NCBI RefSeq assembly: GCF_900155545.1
Contig: NZ_LT732526.1
Coordinates: 652,484 to 716,483, forward strand
DNA: 64,000 bases
Origin: Clostridium sp. Marseille-P2415
Lineage (GTDB): Bacteria; Bacillota; Clostridia; Lachnospirales; Lachnospiraceae
Direction of reading: 5' to 3'
A program made the position numbers and the translations under genes. Below are positions 4,621 to 27,839 of this stretch, one piece after another; position 1 is the first letter of the stretch, and the number at the start of each line of letters is the position of its first letter. Below the pieces are notes generated by a model. The model searched no databases. It was not told where the DNA came from and worked only from the letters and a program-made list of their open reading frames with translations.

Positions 4621-5844
4621 ATGGACGGACTGATAATAGGGCTTGATTTATGTGATGCCTATACCCGCATTTGCTGCCATGACAGGGAAAAAACATGGTG
4701 CATTCCTACGGTCATCTGCAGGAAAAAGGATGAAGATGCCTGGTATGTAGGGGAAGAGGCTTATGCCTATACCCTTGTGGGTGAGGGAATCATTGTGGAC
4801 AAGCTGATAAAAATGGTTAGGAAAGAAGGAACTGCGACCTTAAGCGGAACCAAATACGAAGGCCTTGAACTTTTAAAAATGTTCTTAAAGAAAATATTAA
4901 AATTTCCAATGGAAGAGTTTTTCTGCGAAGAGGTGAAGCAGCTGGTGATCACCTTACAGAGGGTGGATGGAAGGCTGATGGATGCGCTCATGTACTGCGC
5001 GGATTATCTGGGGATTCGCAGAGAACGTGTTCACATCGTCAGTCATACGGAGAGCTTTGTATATTACGTTCTCAGTCAGAAGACAGAAGTCTGGAGCAAT
5101 CAGGTATGTGTATTCGATCTGTCCGAGGACTCCTTTCATTATCATGAACTCAAGGTGCAGAGAGGCTTAAGAAAGATGGTCGTGGTTGCAGAGGATGAGG
5201 ACTTAGAGGAGAGCTTTAACCTGGATATACTGGATACGCCATCCGGAGGCAGGCTGGCGGATAAAATCTTAAGTTCCTGTGCGGACCGGCTTCTGCAGAA
5301 GAAATTGTTTTCCTCTGTATTCCTCACCGGAAAAGGCTTTGAACGGCATGACTGGGCGGCTGATTCCATGAAGGTGCTCTGTTCCCGCCGGAAGGTCTAT
5401 ATGGAGCCGGAGCTGTTTGCCAGAGGTGCTGCCTTTAAGGGGATGGATTACCTTCAGGAAAAGACATCCTATCCCTTCACCTGCATCTGCGAAGGAAGGC
5501 TTCATTCCACCATTTCCATGCAGGTGATACATAAAGAACGGGAGAGCCAGCTGGTGGTGGCCGCTGCCGGAGACAACTGGTATGAATCCAGGAGCAGCGT
5601 GGATCTGATCGTTGATAATCAGGATTATGTGGAATTTATGGTAACTCCCATGGATCCAAAGCAGAAACGGCTGGTAAAGATCACCCTGGAGGGATTTCCT
5701 GACCGGCCGGAAAAAACCACCCGTGTGGGAATCAGCGTTGGATTTTTGGATGAAAAAACCATGGCAGTGGTACTTAAGGACAAAGGCTTTGGAGAATTGT
5801 TCCCGGCCACGGATGCTGTGGTAAGACAAGAGGTCATGTTATGA
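4621..5844 (+). CDS. DUF5716-type Hsp70/actin-like ATPase-fold protein
   Basis: A 407-residue protein whose N-terminal ~270 residues carry the signature pieces of the Hsp70/actin nucleotide-binding fold. A phosphate-1-like loop is GLDLCDAYTRI (residues 7-17). IPTVICRK and a YVGEEAY segment resemble the opening of DnaK proteins. A phosphate-2-like strand is VCVFDLSEDSFHYHEL, an adenosine-type motif is VFLTGKGF, and PELFARGAAFKG follows. The C-terminal ~120 residues look like a beta-rich substrate domain. The canonical Gly-rich phosphate-2 loop is changed, so ATP hydrolysis is uncertain. It overlaps the next gene by 4 bases (ATGA), which suggests coupled translation. The DUF5716 label is from memory of such operons; the role is unknown. 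Confidence 0.72.
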   Translation: MDGLIIGLDLCDAYTRICCHDREKTWCIPTVICRKKDEDAWYVGEEAYAYTLVGEGIIVDKLIKMVRKEGTATLSGTKYEGLELLKMFLKKILKFPMEEFFCEEVKQLVITLQRVDGRLMDALMYCADYLGIRRERVHIVSHTESFVYYVLSQKTEVWSNQVCVFDLSEDSFHYHELKVQRGLRKMVVVAEDEDLEESFNLDILDTPSGGRLADKILSSCADRLLQKKLFSSVFLTGKGFERHDWAADSMKVLCSRRKVYMEPELFARGAAFKGMDYLQEKTSYPFTCICEGRLHSTISMQVIHKERESQLVVAAAGDNWYESRSSVDLIVDNQDYVEFMVTPMDPKQKRLVKITLEGFPDRPEKTTRVGISVGFLDEKTMAVVLKDKGFGELFPATDAVVRQEVML

Positions 5845-6656
5845 GTCTGATTCTTTGCCGGCCGGAGCCGGTTCATCATCCCTTTTATTTTGAAGGCCTG
5901 GGGGTACGCCTGTATTCTTCCCAGGAGCTTTGCTATGTGATTTATAACAATCCGCTTCTGGTCATGGATGGATTTGTGGATCAGAATCTGATTGAATTTA
6001 TCCGTGACGATCTGGATATGGCTTTTCTTGCTTCCAAGCTGGATAAATGGCAGCAGAGCGGTGAGGAGCCGGATGAACTCCTGGCCATCATTCTTCATGA
6101 ATGCGATTACTATCATGCTGCAGAAGTCAGCCGGTTCCGGCAGAAGTTAATTTCTTACAGGAAAATGCCTGCAGCTGAATTTTTAAAGGCAAAAGCGGAT
6201 TACCTCTTTTCCATAAAACAGTACGGAAAGGCTGTGGCGGAATATCAGAGGATCATTGATCTTCCAAAGGCAGATCGCGGGGATGATGTCTTTCTTGCTA
6301 AAATTTATAACAATCTTGGTGCCTCTTACGCCAGATTGTTTATGACCGATAAAGCTTATCAGGCATATCAGAAATCCTTTGATCTGGTGAAAAACGGGGA
6401 AGTTTTAAAAAGAATATGCCATCTTGCCCAGTGGAATCCGGCTATGGTGGTAAACGAACGGTTTCAGTCCTTAATCACAGAGGAGTTAAAACAGGAATGC
6501 AAAAGCGAAAGGGAAAAAGCAGAGGAGCTGGCGGTCGGAGCGGACAGCCTCAAAGAGCTCGAAAACCTGTTTCAAAAGGACCCGATCAAGCGCATCCATG
6601 GAGCCGGAGAGCTTGTTCAGAAGTGGAAACAGGAGTACCGGAATATTATGTCTTGA
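5841..6656 (+). CDS. TPR-repeat protein, third gene of the DUF5717/DUF5716 operon
   Basis: A 271-residue soluble protein. Two TPR-like units are readable around residues 115-200 (KADYLFSIKQYGKAVAEYQR and IYNNLGASYARLFMTDKAYQ, with the usual A/G/Y spacing). The tail is Lys/Glu-rich and probably coiled. The ATG overlaps the stop of the Hsp70-like gene, so translation is probably coupled. TPR proteins often dock to Hsp70-type partners, so an adaptor role is a reasonable inference, but nothing in the sequence proves it. The stop codon lies inside the -35 box of the valS promoter. Confidence 0.75.
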   Translation: MSLILCRPEPVHHPFYFEGLGVRLYSSQELCYVIYNNPLLVMDGFVDQNLIEFIRDDLDMAFLASKLDKWQQSGEEPDELLAIILHECDYYHAAEVSRFRQKLISYRKMPAAEFLKAKADYLFSIKQYGKAVAEYQRIIDLPKADRGDDVFLAKIYNNLGASYARLFMTDKAYQAYQKSFDLVKNGEVLKRICHLAQWNPAMVVNERFQSLITEELKQECKSEREKAEELAVGADSLKELENLFQKDPIKRIHGAGELVQKWKQEYRNIMS

Positions 6657-22691: not shown

Positions 22692-22726
22692 CATAGAATA
22701 CACTAAGGAGGATAGGAGGTGTATCT
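22692..22726 (+). promoter_or_regulatory. Promoter/ribosome-site region of the interrupted YlmC/YmxH gene
   Basis: CATAGAAT (22692-22699) resembles the sigma-E -10 CATACAAT, but the -35 side (GTCACA at 22673-22678) is only suggestive. Ribosome sites AAGGAGG and AGGAGG precede the ATG at 22727. TGCGCATAGA with ATACAC (22688-22703) and GTGTAT with CTATGCGCA (22719-22733) form an inverted repeat with a one-base bulge. The ribosome sites lie in its loop. Confidence 0.45.
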
Positions 22727-22762
22727 ATGCGCATTTCTGAATAGATACTAAGATGATATCAG
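22719..22762. other. attL of the serine-recombinase element
   Basis: Left chromosome-element junction. The GA at 22739-22740 is the inferred crossover dinucleotide. The element-side arm (22741-22762) contains ATACTA and GATATCAG, which mirror TAGTAT and CTGATATC in the right-end arm. Confidence 0.8.
22727..22740 (+). pseudogene. 5' fragment of interrupted YlmC/YmxH-family sporulation gene
   Basis: ATG CGC ATT TCT GA, reading M-R-I-S, is the usual opening of YlmC/YmxH proteins. The frame then runs into the element and stops at once (GAA TAG). The rest of the gene resumes at 27591 with codon 5. See the mobile element. Confidence 0.85.
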
Positions 22763-22773
22763 TAATTGACATG

Positions 22774-24339
22774 CTAAATCTTGGGGTATATTTTAAGGTG
22801 GAATTCGGGGATCTCTTTTTTAGTTCCACGTTTTTCTTTAGAGTATTCGATTTTTTCCAAAACCTCCTTCAATAAAATATTTTGTTCTTCTGGGGTTAAA
22901 TTGTTATAATTATCAAGTAAAAATTCTACCTTTGGAATTAATGATTGTCTTCTTGTCTTAAATTCTTCCTGGCTTTTTTTCTGTTCAAGTAAGTCGTTAA
23001 GAGCATTCTGTGATAGGTTTAATTCATATTTTATCTTTTCTGCCCGATCTTTGAGTGTATCTGCATCATAAATCCCTTTCTCAAACGCTTCATATGCCTT
23101 GTCTAACCATTTTTGGCATTTATCTATACAAGATATAGTCTCTTTTATCTTGGCTTGTGTAACAGCCGTTCCTATGACTGTAAGTTGAGAGGTAGAAATT
23201 GATATGCGATAATCGGCAAGCCATTCTTTTAAAGCTATTAGCAGCTTTTCCATCACATCTTCAGCAGCAGCTCCGGGCATATCACATTTCTTACATAGAA
23301 ATAACTCTTGTTTAATCCTTCCACTAATAGGACGTCGAATCATTGTATATCCGCATTGCCGGCATTTAAGTAACCCGGCAAGAGGATTTTTGATTGTGCC
23401 ATTCAGCCAAATTGGAGCCTTGGAACGGGAATTAAAAACTTTTTGCGCCAGATCAAAGATTTCTTTATCGATGATCGGTTCATGTAAAGCGGGAAAGTAA
23501 TCACAATCTTTATTGACTGGTGTAGAATTTTTGACATTTCCATTTACCATAATCTTTACGATCTTACGTTTACCAGCCGGTATTTCGCCAATATAAGTAT
23601 GATTAAGCAATATGTCACGTATTACGTTATGAGCCCATGTTTCGCTAAACCGCGGCTTTATGCGCAGTTTATCGAGGGCTTTACCAATAGCTGTAGCGCT
23701 AATAGGTTTATTATTGGTTTCCGGGGTTCCTATAGTATACATAGCGTAAATCAAACGAACTATTTCAGCTTCTTCGGGGACTATTTTAAGACTATAGCCT
23801 TTTTGATCTTTGAGTTTATAACGTTCATATCCATATGGAGCTTTTCCCCATGGCCATTTTCCTTCTTTTGCTGTATTATATTTTCCGTCTCGCAGTCGCC
23901 GGCAAATTGTTTTATATTCGCGCCGGCTCATGAAGAGGCCGAATTCAGCATACTCTTCATCAAATTCATTATTGGGATCGAAGGTTTTCATAGGAGTGAT
24001 TATTTTTGTATTACCGTATTTAAAAGTCTCCATAATGAGTCCCTGATCCCTGGTATCTCCACGGGCTAAACGTTCCAGTTCTACGACCAGAATACCATCT
24101 GGCCGGTTGTTTTCGATATCGGTAAGCAAACGCATCATTTCCGGCCTTGCAGCAATAGTTTCGCCAGATACAACTTCACGATAAATTTTGGAAATATTTA
24201 TTCCCAAGTGCTCGGCGAGTTCCTTTAAACGGTTCTCATGTCTAGCCAGGGTTTCACCTTCTCCATGTGCCTCCGCTTCTACATCTTCACGTGACTTGCG
24301 TAAATACATATAATATTTTCCATTGGGGTCTAGTGCCAA
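22774..24339 (-). CDS. Large serine recombinase / integrase
   Basis: Site-specific recombinase, 521 residues, likely responsible for integrating and excising this element. The N-terminal resolvase domain has the catalytic Ser in YMYLRKSREDVE (Ser near 16), the motif LVVELERLARGD, and SRREYKTICRRL. A recombinase domain follows. Next comes a zinc ribbon (LLKCRQCGYTMIRR ... LFLCKKCDMPG), then a long coiled-coil tail (about 395-500) typical of large serine integrases. The start is TTG at 24339 with AAGGAG 9 bases upstream. It reads toward attL and its stop is only 12 bases from the att arm. No inactivating lesion is visible. Confidence 0.93.
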   Translation of the reverse strand: MALDPNGKYYMYLRKSREDVEAEAHGEGETLARHENRLKELAEHLGINISKIYREVVSGETIAARPEMMRLLTDIENNRPDGILVVELERLARGDTRDQGLIMETFKYGNTKIITPMKTFDPNNEFDEEYAEFGLFMSRREYKTICRRLRDGKYNTAKEGKWPWGKAPYGYERYKLKDQKGYSLKIVPEEAEIVRLIYAMYTIGTPETNNKPISATAIGKALDKLRIKPRFSETWAHNVIRDILLNHTYIGEIPAGKRKIVKIMVNGNVKNSTPVNKDCDYFPALHEPIIDKEIFDLAQKVFNSRSKAPIWLNGTIKNPLAGLLKCRQCGYTMIRRPISGRIKQELFLCKKCDMPGAAAEDVMEKLLIALKEWLADYRISISTSQLTVIGTAVTQAKIKETISCIDKCQKWLDKAYEAFEKGIYDADTLKDRAEKIKYELNLSQNALNDLLEQKKSQEEFKTRRQSLIPKVEFLLDNYNNLTPEEQNILLKEVLEKIEYSKEKRGTKKEIPEFHLKIYPKI

Positions 24340-24380
24340 TTATATCATCTCCTTGTTAAATGTACGTAAAACAGGGCATA

Positions 24381-24406
24381 AAAATAACACCCATTGACCG
24401 GGTGCA
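24381..24406 (-). terminator. Hairpin upstream of the recombinase gene
   Basis: On the minus strand, CACCC, a 7-base loop, GGGTG, then TTATTTTT. It may be a weak terminator or attenuator between the recombinase promoter and its start, or it may insulate the gene. The 24340-24585 gap shows no other gene. Confidence 0.4.
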
Positions 24407-24585
24407 CCAAGAACGCGTTTTTTTCTATTCTTTTCCCCTCACTTACCATAATGTTATTGAGCGTATAGCGTAAGCAAGGTTAGTGCAAACGCGCGAATGA
24501 ACGTGTCAACTAAAAAGGGAAGATTAGAAACAAGTACAAACCGTATTACATAGTATCAATTAGAGGATCTTTTAAGAGGTGCTAT

Positions 24586-24747
24586 ATGAAAGTAAAGGAA
24601 TACAAGTTCGACAATTGTACAATTGAAATTCATGATGATTACCTTGTCGATGAAACTAGGAAGAAGGAAATACTTGAAAATGCTGGGAAAATTGTATCTC
24701 GAGCATTGGAAAGACAACTCATGGATAACCAGATAGGAACCGCCTGA
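24586..24747 (+). CDS. Small hypothetical protein (53 aa)
   Basis: ORF with AAGAGGT 5 bases before the ATG. The peptide starts MKVKEYKFDNCTIEIHDDYL and ends in an amphipathic Lys/Glu-rich helix. I do not recognise it. Its position divergent from the recombinase and its small charged nature would fit a recombination directionality factor or regulator, but this is speculation from position only. Confidence 0.5.
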   Translation: MKVKEYKFDNCTIEIHDDYLVDETRKKEILENAGKIVSRALERQLMDNQIGTA

Positions 24748-24831
24748 TATGGCGGACATGCTGGACAAGCTACCTTTCGATTATTACTTGTTTCGTGTTC
24801 CTTACTATGGTTAAATTACAACTTATAAAAG

Positions 24832-24891
24832 TTGAATATATAAGGACGTAATATAATTGAATATTGACTCTTTATTGGTTTGAATATATAA
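24832..24891 (+). repeat. Three direct repeats (TTGAATAT) upstream of the ribbon-helix-helix gene
   Basis: TTGAATATATAA at 24832-24843 and 24880-24891, with a shorter copy TTGAATAT at 24857-24864, spaced 25 and 23 bases. They lie in AT-rich DNA 25-80 bases before the RHH start, where an autoregulatory operator would be expected. Confidence 0.6.
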
Positions 24892-24915
24892 AAGTTTATA
24901 TAAGGCGGTGAAAAT

Positions 24916-25116
24916 GTGGGAGCAACACCAGAATACACTAAGAAGGCAATACAGAATTACAATAATAAATTTGACAGAATAGCGGTAAACTTACCCAAAG
25001 GTAGTAAAGAACGGATTAGAGAAATTACGGGTAAAAGTTGTAATTCTTATATATCCGAATTGGTTATAGATGACCTGGAGAGATTAGAAAGAGAGGGGAA
25101 TAACAATGAGCAATAG
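24916..25116 (+). CDS. Ribbon-helix-helix-like DNA-binding protein (antitoxin-like)
   Basis: 66 residues from GTG at 24916. The pattern DRIAVNLPKGSKERIREI, then SYISELVIDDLERLE, fits an Arc/MetJ-type fold: one beta strand followed by two helices. Small proteins of this type serve as antitoxins or element repressors. It overlaps the next gene by 11 bases. The repeats at 24832-24891 may be its binding sites. Confidence 0.6.
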   Translation: MGATPEYTKKAIQNYNNKFDRIAVNLPKGSKERIREITGKSCNSYISELVIDDLERLEREGNNNEQ

Positions 25117-25333
25117 AGAAAGAGCGATAGAGCTATTGAACCAAGTCCCGGAGTATAAAATGGGCTATGTGCTGGCATATATCCAGGGCATAACAGCAGA
25201 TGAAGAAGCGGACGATATTTTCTGTGAAAAAATGTATCAAAATTATCTAAACGATCATGATCCGGAAAAGGATAAAACATACAGTCTTGGAGAATGTAAA
25301 GAAGAATGGGGGATTGGTGGTAATTGTCATTGA
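25106..25333 (+). CDS. Small acidic protein, possibly antitoxin-like (75 aa)
   Basis: Overlaps the RHH gene and has AGAGGGG before its ATG. Starts MSNRERAIELLNQVPEYKMG and carries an acidic stretch (TADEEADDIF). Proteins of this look often accompany small toxins in Clostridia, but no toxin gene follows here, so it would be an orphan. I cannot assign a function. Confidence 0.5.
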   Translation: MSNRERAIELLNQVPEYKMGYVLAYIQGITADEEADDIFCEKMYQNYLNDHDPEKDKTYSLGECKEEWGIGGNCH

Positions 25334-25405
25334 CGCTGGGAACAGAGGAGAAATTTATAAAGATTATTAATACTTAAGGGCTGGCAGTTGATTTTTTAAA
25401 TGAAT

Positions 25406-25434
25406 CCCCCATGTATTTATTACTTACATAGGGG
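25406..25434. terminator. Hairpin between converging element genes
   Basis: CCCCCATGTA (25406-25415) pairs with TACATAGGGG (25425-25434) with one mismatch. It is placed to end both the 75-aa gene and the secreted-protein gene. Confidence 0.55.
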
Positions 25435-25452
25435 ATGTCATCTACCATTATG

Positions 25453-25872
25453 TCAGAAAATTGTTTCGTAAAGTAAGAGATAGGCTGTTTCTTTTAGCGG
25501 ATTAGCTGTAGTTTCTATAACACGATAAGTTGCGCTGGGCTCTAAATTTGTAAAAGATGAATTTATACTCGTTGAACCTATAGTAGTCCTAGAATCTATA
25601 GTAGTCCATCTACCATTGACATATTTTTGTAAGGTTATTGTACTGGTATAATCATTAGTAGCTGGGGTGGCAAAAAGAATAGCAAAACTATAAGATAGAC
25701 AGTCTGAATATAATACAAAGGATGGAGTTATATTTAAAGACCGACTATTAATATTTTGCGCCTTTTCATATATGGTTCTTTGCGTAGAAGTAGAAGCAGA
25801 AGCAGAAATAGATAGTACTAGAACTAATATTGCACATAATAAAATTGAAAATATTCTTCTTTTTTTCAACAC
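25453..25872 (-). CDS. Secreted protein of unknown function (139 aa)
   Basis: Starts at GTG 25872 with GGAGG 5 bases upstream. A clear signal peptide (KKRRIFSILLCAILVLVLSI, cleavage near ASA-ST) is followed by a Ser/Thr-rich mature part of ~110 residues. That part is predicted mostly beta, with TITLQKYVNGRWTTID and a Tyr-rich end. No Cys. It looks like a small beta-sandwich exoprotein. I do not recognise a family. AT-rich codons match the element. Confidence 0.65.
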   Translation of the reverse strand: MLKKRRIFSILLCAILVLVLSISASASTSTQRTIYEKAQNINSRSLNITPSFVLYSDCLSYSFAILFATPATNDYTSTITLQKYVNGRWTTIDSRTTIGSTSINSSFTNLEPSATYRVIETTANPLKETAYLLLYETIF

Positions 25873-25921
25873 AATCGCCTCCTTATTAATTATGTAATAG
25901 ATGCCGCTGTTTAATTATATA

Positions 25922-26057
25922 TTAACCGGAAAACTGTATGGAGCGATTCAGCCGGTACAGGATCCCCGTTTCGCTCATGATGTTTTCATAAGACTCCTGA
26001 CGCTTCTCCATAAAAAACATACAGCCGTTTGTTCCCATTTGCTCTGGGCATGTAGGA
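25922..26057 (-). pseudogene. Transposase C-terminal remnant (IS1182-like)
   Basis: A minus-strand frame reads ...MEKRQESYENIMSETGILYR then LNRSIQ, resembling the region before the RSIQ.EG motif of IS1182-family transposases. The conserved continuation is lost (FSG then stop). No start, inverted repeats or catalytic residues remain. The family is from memory of such sequences and needs a search. Confidence 0.4.
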
Positions 26058-26068
26058 ACTCAATTGCC

Positions 26069-27073
26069 TTAAACATATACCATTGTTTGAGGTGTAACAA
26101 TAAATTTATATCCGATAAGTATTCTCGGTTCCCAAACAAAGTAATTGCTATGTCTTATTTTACCAAATATTTCCCAATTCTGCTTCACATAATAAGCCAT
26201 ATCAGGGACAACAAACCTATCGAGATTTCCAATTTGTTCCATTCCATAACCTGATGGTTCTTTAATATATTTGAAAAAACCAATCCAGTAAGCACCATTT
26301 CCATCTGCTGTCATATCTAAGGTTGTCATTACAGAACCATTTGGAATAGTTGAATCATTTGTCAGGTCGTAATACTGTGATGGAACATAAGTATCATAGT
26401 CATTCCCCAGAGGAACATATCCAAAGTTAAAGCTTAATCCCGGATCTCTCCATCCTGTGTCACCATTTTTAAAGGCCGGACCAAAATAAAGAGTATATGG
26501 ATAATCACTGTAACCTGTATTCGGCTGAACAGCTAAATAGTATGTACCTGTCTGATTAATATTGATATAAAATTCCTCAGCAGTATTTCCAGCCTGAAAA
26601 TTATAATATGCACCAGTTAAATCACTGTTAAACAGTGCCATATCATAATCGCAGCCAGAGGGAATATTCATAAGTACGAATGAATATGGCTCAGAAGTAT
26701 CTAATATTTCAAGCTTATACCAATCTACATCTCCTTCATGGATCGTTGCAGTAATCTTTTGCCCCATAAGACCACCCGTTGCTGTTGCTATGGAATTATT
26801 AGGTTCATATTTATCTCCACTTGAAGCCAATGCCATTGCCTCGTCAGCATTAAATTCCATGTTAAACTTTCCCTTTAAAGTATCTACTGATACAAAGTCA
26901 CTGCAATCCGCAACGTTTTCAGTTCCAGTCAAATTTTTAAATAAAATGGAATCTGCATCTTCATTTACAATATTAATAACATTTCCACCTTCTGTACATT
27001 CTGCTGCAAATACAGGCATTGAAAAAATCATAGTCCCTACTAAAGCTAAACATAAAATTTTTCTAAGTTTCAT
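26069..27073 (-). CDS. Secreted protein with PPC-type (bacterial pre-peptidase C-terminal) domain
   Basis: 334 residues with a signal peptide (MKLRKILCLALVGTMIFSMP, cleavage near VFA-AE). Residues ~105-200 match the PPC pattern: DKYEPNNSIATAT, VDWYKLEI, SGCDYDMALFNSD, GTYYLAVQP. The C-terminal ~130 residues, rich in Tyr and Trp, are unrecognised. PPC domains usually ride on secreted proteases, but no protease domain is present. AGGAG lies about 9 bases before the ATG. It is cargo of the element, in the same orientation as the other secreted protein. Confidence 0.75.
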   Translation of the reverse strand: MKLRKILCLALVGTMIFSMPVFAAECTEGGNVINIVNEDADSILFKNLTGTENVADCSDFVSVDTLKGKFNMEFNADEAMALASSGDKYEPNNSIATATGGLMGQKITATIHEGDVDWYKLEILDTSEPYSFVLMNIPSGCDYDMALFNSDLTGAYYNFQAGNTAEEFYININQTGTYYLAVQPNTGYSDYPYTLYFGPAFKNGDTGWRDPGLSFNFGYVPLGNDYDTYVPSQYYDLTNDSTIPNGSVMTTLDMTADGNGAYWIGFFKYIKEPSGYGMEQIGNLDRFVVPDMAYYVKQNWEIFGKIRHSNYFVWEPRILIGYKFIVTPQTMVYV

Positions 27074-27109
27074 AGCATATTTCTCCTTTCTACATTTGGG
27101 TGTTACGTT

Positions 27110-27234
27110 TTAGTTTCTTGGGTTGATAAATCCCATACACGGTGGTGGCCAGCCGGAATAAATTACATTTGACTCGACCTCTGCTACTTTAGTAATTACT
27201 TGAAGTACACTCTTTTTTATTTGATTTTATCCAT
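27110..27234 (-). pseudogene. Possible AgrD-like peptide gene, broken by a frameshift
   Basis: A strong ribosome site (AAGGAGGGAGAGG) precedes ATG at 27234, but that frame stops after five codons (MDKIK). In the -1 frame from the same point the text reads KKSVLQVITKVAEVES, then GWPPPCMGFINPRN and stop. An amphipathic helix followed by Cys plus four residues and a short polar tail resembles AgrD peptides. No agrB or agrC is nearby. Weak call. Confidence 0.25.
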
Positions 27235-27568
27235 ACCTCTCCCTCCTTTCCGCGACTTTTTGAAATAATTATAAAAAAGTATCTAAAGCAAGTCCTCTTA
27301 TGGTATATAATGGGAATCTATTTATCAAAGACACAATGTTGTAATCTGCTGCGGGGTACTTCCGCACATTGCATGTGCTTTACACCTGCAGCTTGTACAT
27401 CTTCATATCTTACGGAATTAGGCAAAATGCTGTATAAAATACTTAAATAAACATGTACTTTTAAAATAATAGTAGTACTACAAAATGTAAAAATCAATAC
27501 AAGTGCTAAAATTATACATGTTAAGTGCCAAAATTTGCATTTGATTAGTATAAAATAATGGATTTTTA
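27235..27568. other. AT-rich right end of the element, no convincing gene
   Basis: A minus-strand frame (27318-27602) encodes one hydrophobic stretch, but it begins across attR and has no ribosome site that I can see. Otherwise only AT-rich sequence is visible up to the right att arm at 27569. Confidence 0.5.
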
Positions 27569-27612
27569 CTGATATCACTTTAGTATTATTGATCTCAAGC
27601 AAAAAGAAGTAA
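27569..27612. other. attR of the serine-recombinase element
   Basis: Right junction. The element-side arm (27569-27590) begins CTGATATC and contains TAGTAT. The GA at 27591-27592 is the shared dinucleotide, followed by chromosomal TCTCAAGCAAAAAGAAG, codons 5-10 of the split gene. Confidence 0.8.
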
Positions 27613-27839
27613 TAAACATCTGCGACTGCAGGCGCCTTGGCTACGTTGGTGATGTGGACTTTGACATGGAAACCGGATGCCTTCTGGCAATCATTGTGCC
27701 CGGACCCGGGTGCTTCTGCGGATTTCTGGTCAGAGAGAGGGAATATGTGATCCCCTTCTGTGACATACGTCAGGTAGGACCGGATATCATTCTGGTGAAT
27801 GTGGATTTGGATAAAGCAACGGAAAAATGCGGAATATAG
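27591..27839 (+). pseudogene. 3' part of interrupted YlmC/YmxH-family sporulation gene
   Basis: From GAT at 27591 the frame reads DLKQKEVINICDCRRLGYVG and runs 82 residues to the TAG at 27837. With the MRIS encoded at 22727 it makes an 86-residue protein, normal for the YlmC/YmxH family (PRC-barrel-like, confined to endospore formers, exact role unclear). In the current arrangement there is no ATG or ribosome site at the 5' end; an in-frame GTG at 27654 would give only 61 residues. The gene should be silent or truncated unless the element leaves. Confidence 0.85.

Follow-up and report, generated by a model that had tools for sequence, protein, structure and literature searches.

In the 64,000-nt stretch of the genome of Clostridium sp. 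Marseille-P2415 analysed here (contig NZ_LT732526.1, positions 652,484 to 716,483; referred to as the window), a 4,852-bp element encoding a large serine integrase interrupts the sporulation gene ymxH (YlmC/YmxH family) after codon 4. We consider it likely that this is an intervening element of the skin/SPbeta type, which is excised in the mother cell with the rebuilding of ymxH. Substitutions in split copies of the host gene show that it remains under selection, and excision in the mother cell is predicted from the sequence. Known intervening elements of sporulation genes are skin, SPbeta, gin, vfbin and yin. The ymxH element appears to join this class with ymxH as a new target; among the papers listed by full-text literature searches, none concerns an element inside ylmC or ymxH.

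The split ymxH gene and its reconstruction

The genome comprises 5.25 Mb on 9 contigs. The element and the gene that it splits have the following parts:

22727..22740, plus strand: 5' piece of ymxH and left half of the left attachment site (attL), codons 1-4 plus GA, letters ATGCGCATTTCTGA
22739..22740: putative crossover dinucleotide GA in attL (sequence of both flanks and junction comparison of five genomes)
22774..24339, minus strand: large serine integrase, 521 aa (Pfam Resolvase and Recombinase; phrog_95 integrase; profile search of solved structures)
24535..24556, plus strand: mother-cell-promoter-like motif TACAAACCGTATTACATAGTAT before orf53 (upstream-motif comparison)
24586..24747, plus strand: orf53, 53 aa, candidate recombination directionality factor (conservation, family profile, predicted fold)
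27591..27592: putative crossover dinucleotide GA in the right attachment site, attR (same evidence as in attL)
27591..27839, plus strand: 3' piece of ymxH, codons 5-86 and stop (TIGR02888 match)

The right flank starts at 27591 with GATCTCAAG, and joining the flanks at the common GA gives an 86-codon frame that reads MRISDLKQKEVINI... The crossover would lie exactly at this GA, inside a TGA common to both sides. In the present split state, the 5' piece encodes MRISE followed by a stop, while in the 3' piece the first in-frame ATG, GTG or TTG is the GTG at codon 26 (27654). The NCBIfam profile TIGR02888 matches once in the whole genome, and this match is the 3' piece (63.1 bits; curated cut-off 44.2). 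The split gene is the single YlmC/YmxH-family gene of this genome. An initial annotation of this DNA had described a serine-recombinase element of about 4.85 kb splitting such a gene after codon 4, the two flank sequences, the restorable 86-codon frame, a 5' piece reduced to M-R-I-S-E, a 3' piece lacking a start and an apparently intact recombinase; all of this is borne out here. The architecture of an intervening element that it had proposed, i.e. a recombinase, attachment sites within coding sequence, a restorable frame and a sporulation gene as target, is likewise present and recurs in four more genomes. The developmental excision that it had marked as inference is still a prediction, to which the present analysis adds purifying selection on split copies and the promoter-like motif upstream of orf53.

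The integrase frame is open and has the domains PF00239 (Resolvase) and PF07508 (Recombinase), in this order and both above the Pfam cut-off, while the zinc ribbon PF13408 scores 22.4 bits and is below the cut-off of 25.3. Ser16, which we take to be the catalytic serine, is invariant across four integrases, and in the profile search the closest solved protein is YokA/SprA (E 5e-60).

Uninterrupted copies of the gene, for which the initial annotation had looked to related genomes, are common. In a sample of 25 genomes of the same genus, taken to be Lacrimispora, the present genome included, the family was matched in 24. Of these copies, 21 are intact, two (in the present genome and G306) are split at the same base and one carries an internal deletion; no match was found in G308, a genome that is 67% complete. 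The intact copies start MRI[CS][DE]L. Because intact ymxH in both G300 and G310 starts MRISDLK, Ser4 of the reconstruction is natural; the start in G310, ATGCGCATTTCTGATCTGAAG, encodes the same protein as the reconstruction over codons 1-7. Thus, at codons 4-6, where the initial annotation had allowed that relatives might contradict the reconstruction, they read MRISD or MRIC[DE]. In the bacterial family, represented by one genome per genus, the gene family is present in 194 of 299 genomes. The copy with the internal deletion (G315, a draft genome; L081), in which the frame is broken, was rejected as a case of insertion. The same applies to G223, G243, G221, G011, G066, G040 and G092, in which the profile match starts late, at position 3-4; these have divergent starts and no insertion.

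Recurrent insertion at one base

At least four further genomes have ymxH split at the same base: G306, Candidatus Hungatella pullicola (G132/L114), in which the split copy is broken across two contigs, Clostridium sp. MCC353 (G253/L118) and Clostridium sp. chh4-2 (L116). In all five split genes the left side ends with TGA and the right side starts with GAT, and the joined frames read MRISDLKQKEV (window), VRISDLKQKEV (Hungatella) and MRICDLKQKEV (G306, MCC353 and chh4-2). The elements of MCC353 and chh4-2 are about 4.9 and 5.1 kb; they (L082, L118, L116) carry a gene that, by eye, is amidase-like and has cell-wall-binding-like repeats. The insert in G306 spans about 84.9 kb and encodes terminase, portal, scaffolding, major head, tail and amidase/endolysin proteins; IMG/VR 2524614838_000004 carries a similar prophage. 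Between the window element and G306, the integrases are 85% identical and the orf53 products 92% identical in amino acid sequence. DNA likeness is confined to three stretches, at 82% over the integrase region and at 86% over both the orf53 region and the right end, which includes the 3' piece of ymxH. The integrase is matched by 336 records of isolated phages, all below 60% identity.

Selection on the split copies

A comparison of MCC353 with chh4-2 across the 3' piece (82 codons) gives 41 synonymous differences and 0 non-synonymous ones. For the window and G306, the protein encoded by the 3' piece is identical, with 31 synonymous differences at the DNA level. Between MCC353 and chh4-2, synonymous divergence (pS) in the element is 0.615 for the integrase, 0.598 for the amidase, 0.695 and 0.578 for two other genes and 0.526 for the orf53 family. 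For 13 flanking genes, chosen by eye from the list of open reading frames (ORFs), pS is 0.44-0.54 in 11, 0.246 in nrdR and 0.677 in the gene directly left of ymxH; the 3' frame of ymxH itself has a pS of 0.846. The split copies therefore look to be under purifying selection. Because element and flanks have diverged to a similar extent and the ratio in the gene is 41:0, the data fit an element older than the split between MCC353 and chh4-2, with the gene kept throughout. Alternatively, the two species may have taken up related elements separately.

These numbers bear on the strongest alternative, namely that this is merely an integrative element of the usual kind, or the remnant of a prophage, which used ymxH as its bacterial attachment site (attB) and simply inactivated the gene, with no regulated excision. 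The same geometry would arise from any site-specific integrase, excision itself is a prediction, and no phage structural gene was found among the six element ORFs searched. However, a permanently dead ymxH is hard to reconcile with the 41:0 conservation alongside an element of similar divergence. Synonymous to non-synonymous differences between split copies stand at 41:0 and 31:1, the element genes of the two species have diverged about as much as most of their neighbours, and the motif upstream of orf53 is conserved. Consequently, we regard simple inactivation as unlikely.

Promoter-like motifs, a candidate excision factor and a model

The promoter region of ymxH remains on the far side of the element from most of the gene:

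22692..22699, plus strand: -10-like box CATAGAAT in the ymxH promoter region, mother-cell sigma-E/K-like (cross-genome box comparison)

The pattern CATAG[AT]AT is located 19-30 nt upstream of the ymxH start in 26 of 28 sequences, split and intact; of the other two, L065 reads CATAGACT and L072 is limited to the 3' side of G306. We take CATANNAT to resemble the -10 boxes of sigma-E and sigma-K, and assign ymxH a putative promoter of this type. In one report, ylmC is described as sporulation-specific and sigE-dependent in C. perfringens, with sigE dependence also reported for B. subtilis (PMC9332280).

Upstream of orf53, the layout is GTACAAAC-N7-CATAGTAT, and a comparable layout is present upstream of orf53 homologues in elements of ymxH, of sleL and, in some cases, of cotJC. 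The pattern GTACAA[AC]C-N5-9-CATA occurs in 28 of 138 distinct upstream stretches, while shuffles in two-base blocks give 0.02; the upstream modules are related and, therefore, this count shows conservation more than independent origin. The ACAA box is reminiscent of SpoIIID sites, with an inexact fit to the B. subtilis consensus. Its fit to the C. difficile consensus given in PMC5025042 is likewise inexact.

Orf53 is a candidate recombination directionality (excision) factor. The gene neighbours the integrase gene and belongs to a conserved, unannotated family, for which a profile was built; its product is 39% identical to the MCC353 copy. The first hit of the predicted Orf53 model in the PDB is SprB, and this hit is weak. 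For four members of the family, searches of Pfam and PHROG at 0.01 found nothing (orf53 itself: phrog_33435 at E 0.081), and a sequence search of solved chains returned no credible solved relative of orf53; short matches to complex I at E about 0.01 are regarded as chance.

Based on these data, we suggest the following model. The integrase would have inserted a 4.85-kb circle into attB within ymxH, and the gene would remain split in vegetative cells and in the forespore. In the mother cell, the type of sigma factor that reads ymxH would, judging from the -10-like boxes, read orf53 too. Orf53, acting as directionality factor, would then drive the integrase to recombine attL with attR at GA. As a result, the mother-cell chromosome would lose the circle and regain ymxH as an 86-codon gene, the frame of which is evident in the flanks, while the spore would retain the element.

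Excision could also be real and yet be triggered by growth phase or DNA damage, as in active lysogeny or phase variation, and not by the mother-cell programme. The closest relative at the ymxH site is a prophage that carries genes for head, tail, packaging and lysis, and PMC10747680 describes the yin element in yabG of C. botulinum as excised at every time point. By contrast, CATANNAT boxes are present upstream of both ymxH and orf53, and many relatives of the integrase are located in spore-associated genes; we consider such a trigger improbable, somewhat more so than simple inactivation. Least of all do we expect that the 3' piece is translated while split, whether the start is the GTG at 27654 or a non-standard codon in the element (ATT ATT GAT, 27585-27593). 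Six codons ahead of the junction are open in this frame, but no Shine-Dalgarno-like stretch was found there by eye, the GTG start would cost 25 residues, and all five split genes keep the start codon and the -10-like box on the far side.

Other parts of the element

The two half-sites of the element's own attachment site (attP) hold the arms of an imperfect palindrome, and the remaining ORFs have few or no matches:

22745..22765, plus strand: attP inverted-repeat arm ATACTAAGATGATATCAGTAA (flank sequence)
24916..25116, plus strand: 66-aa ORF, phrog_31631 and phrog_13890 (phage families of unknown function)
25106..25333, plus strand: 75-aa ORF, no match
25453..25872, minus strand: 139-aa ORF, N terminus hydrophobic by eye, no match under E 0.01
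26069..27073, minus strand: 334-aa ORF, N terminus hydrophobic by eye, weak PPC match below the Pfam cut-off
27566..27586, plus strand: attP inverted-repeat arm TTACTGATATCACTTTAGTAT (flank sequence)

In the fetched loci outside this genome, the 66-, 75-, 139- and 334-aa cargo ORFs have no relatives at E 1e-4. By eye, G306 has a promoter TTGACC-N17-TATAAT directed away from the integrase (L110 2700-2740); L083 also has a TATAAT-like box (5815-5860), and the window retains TTGACC with no TATAAT (24385-24420).

The wider integrase lineage

Related integrase loci were classified by what lies on the C-terminal side of the integrase in 159 of 160 cases (L213, which ends at a contig end, was excluded); 125 have at least 300 nt of flank and 34 have less. 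Since these loci were taken as the best relatives of the query, and many of them are kin, the figures are counts and not rates. Among the 125, a piece of cotJC lies at most 600 nt from the integrase end in 58 and a piece of sleL in 6. The ymxH cases among the related loci number four (L114, L116, L118, L194), and the class of other targets includes many loci in which the C-terminal side is the interior of the element. The names cotJC and sleL are presumptive and based on Mn_catalase, LysM and GH18 matches. In this integrase group, the neighbour met most often is cotJC, the manganese-catalase coat protein gene (e.g. L115, L117, L119, L121, L277); by eye, it is also the target in L229, while related elements in L240 and L258 lie inside an asparagine synthetase gene. 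A prophage adjoining a cotJC-like gene of C. difficile is described in PMC11222575.

With the window and fetched duplicates excluded and the ymxH loci re-assigned, the orf53 motif is present in 4/46 cotJC, 5/6 sleL, 3/3 ymxH and 2/51 other loci with orf53. Thus, 42 of the 46 cotJC elements with orf53 do not have the motif, and a general link between motif and sporulation target does not hold. Nor does the motif define a genome-wide regulon, with five sites in the present genome against three for the reversed pattern; two of the five belong to orf53 in the ymxH element and to its counterpart in the sleL element.

Three genes are split in this one genome: sigK, sleL and ymxH. A second integrase of the same group lies between the halves of a LysM/GH18 gene (3489171-3489920 and 3481897-3482361). 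This sleL/yaaH-like gene (G000:C9:3481897-3489920; L274, L275) is split by an element of about 6.8 kb with, by eye, a peptide transporter, an M24-type peptidase and a cupin regulator as cargo. The sigK gene is split into 832319-832594 and 844082-844438 by an element with its own serine recombinase. This element (G000:C9:832319-844438; L293) is about 11.5 kb, encodes a 569-aa serine recombinase and carries a nickel hydrogenase large subunit and, by eye, hyp maturation genes and an alpha-galactosidase-like gene; it is a skin-like element with metabolic cargo. At L294 and L295 of the same genome, ORF copies are repeated on both sides of runs of unknown bases, perhaps as scaffolding artefacts.

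We consider it an evenly balanced proposition that a serine-integrase lineage with its own small factor family has specialised in mother-cell genes (cotJC, sleL, ymxH and perhaps more) across Clostridia, in the form of full phages and stripped 5-kb elements, with the factor, in some of its members, wired to mother-cell transcription and the host genes rebuilt only in the doomed cell. If so, split-and-rebuild sporulation genes would be where one integrase lineage of Clostridia commonly resides, and not rare exceptions such as sigK and spsM; a large group of integrases, of use as genetic tools, would gain a testable candidate excision factor; and prophage and mini-element at one attB would form a natural pair for studying the domestication of phages into developmental elements. 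In sporulating species, annotation would list such genes as absent or defective.

Comparison with known systems

A near counterpart is SPbeta in Bacillus spsM, in which a sporulation gene is likewise split and a small separate factor (SprB) accompanies the integrase (SprA). SprA/YokA is the closest solved relative of the window integrase, and the weak likeness of Orf53 to SprB comes from the predicted model, Orf53 having no credible sequence match to solved chains. However, SPbeta has a different target and is a phage of 134 kb (PMC6957869), while the 4.85-kb window element has no recognised structural genes. In skinCd of C. difficile sigK (recombinase CD1231, factor CD1234), the factor is under sigma-E and SpoIIID (PMC5025042), and orf53 is similarly preceded by a CATANNAT box and an ACAA-containing box; these factors are likened by regulation and not by sequence, and skinCd differs in target gene and size. 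In both skinCd and SPbeta, the factor rather than the recombinase is under sporulation control, according to PMC5595907. The same source describes gin in gerE of Bacillus cereus (GirC, GirX) as a non-phage-like element in a short mother-cell gene; the window element resembles it, ymxH being a predicted mother-cell gene, although gin has 28.6 kb and three recombinases and the window element 4.85 kb and one. The yin element also lies in a sporulation gene and is, according to PMC10747680, prophage-like with a putative 53-aa factor; its target gene is different and it is likened to the window element by description, not by sequence. Finally, the prophage of about 85 kb in ymxH of G306 shares the attB base, the integrase and orf53 with the window element and differs from it in having head, tail, packaging and lysis genes.

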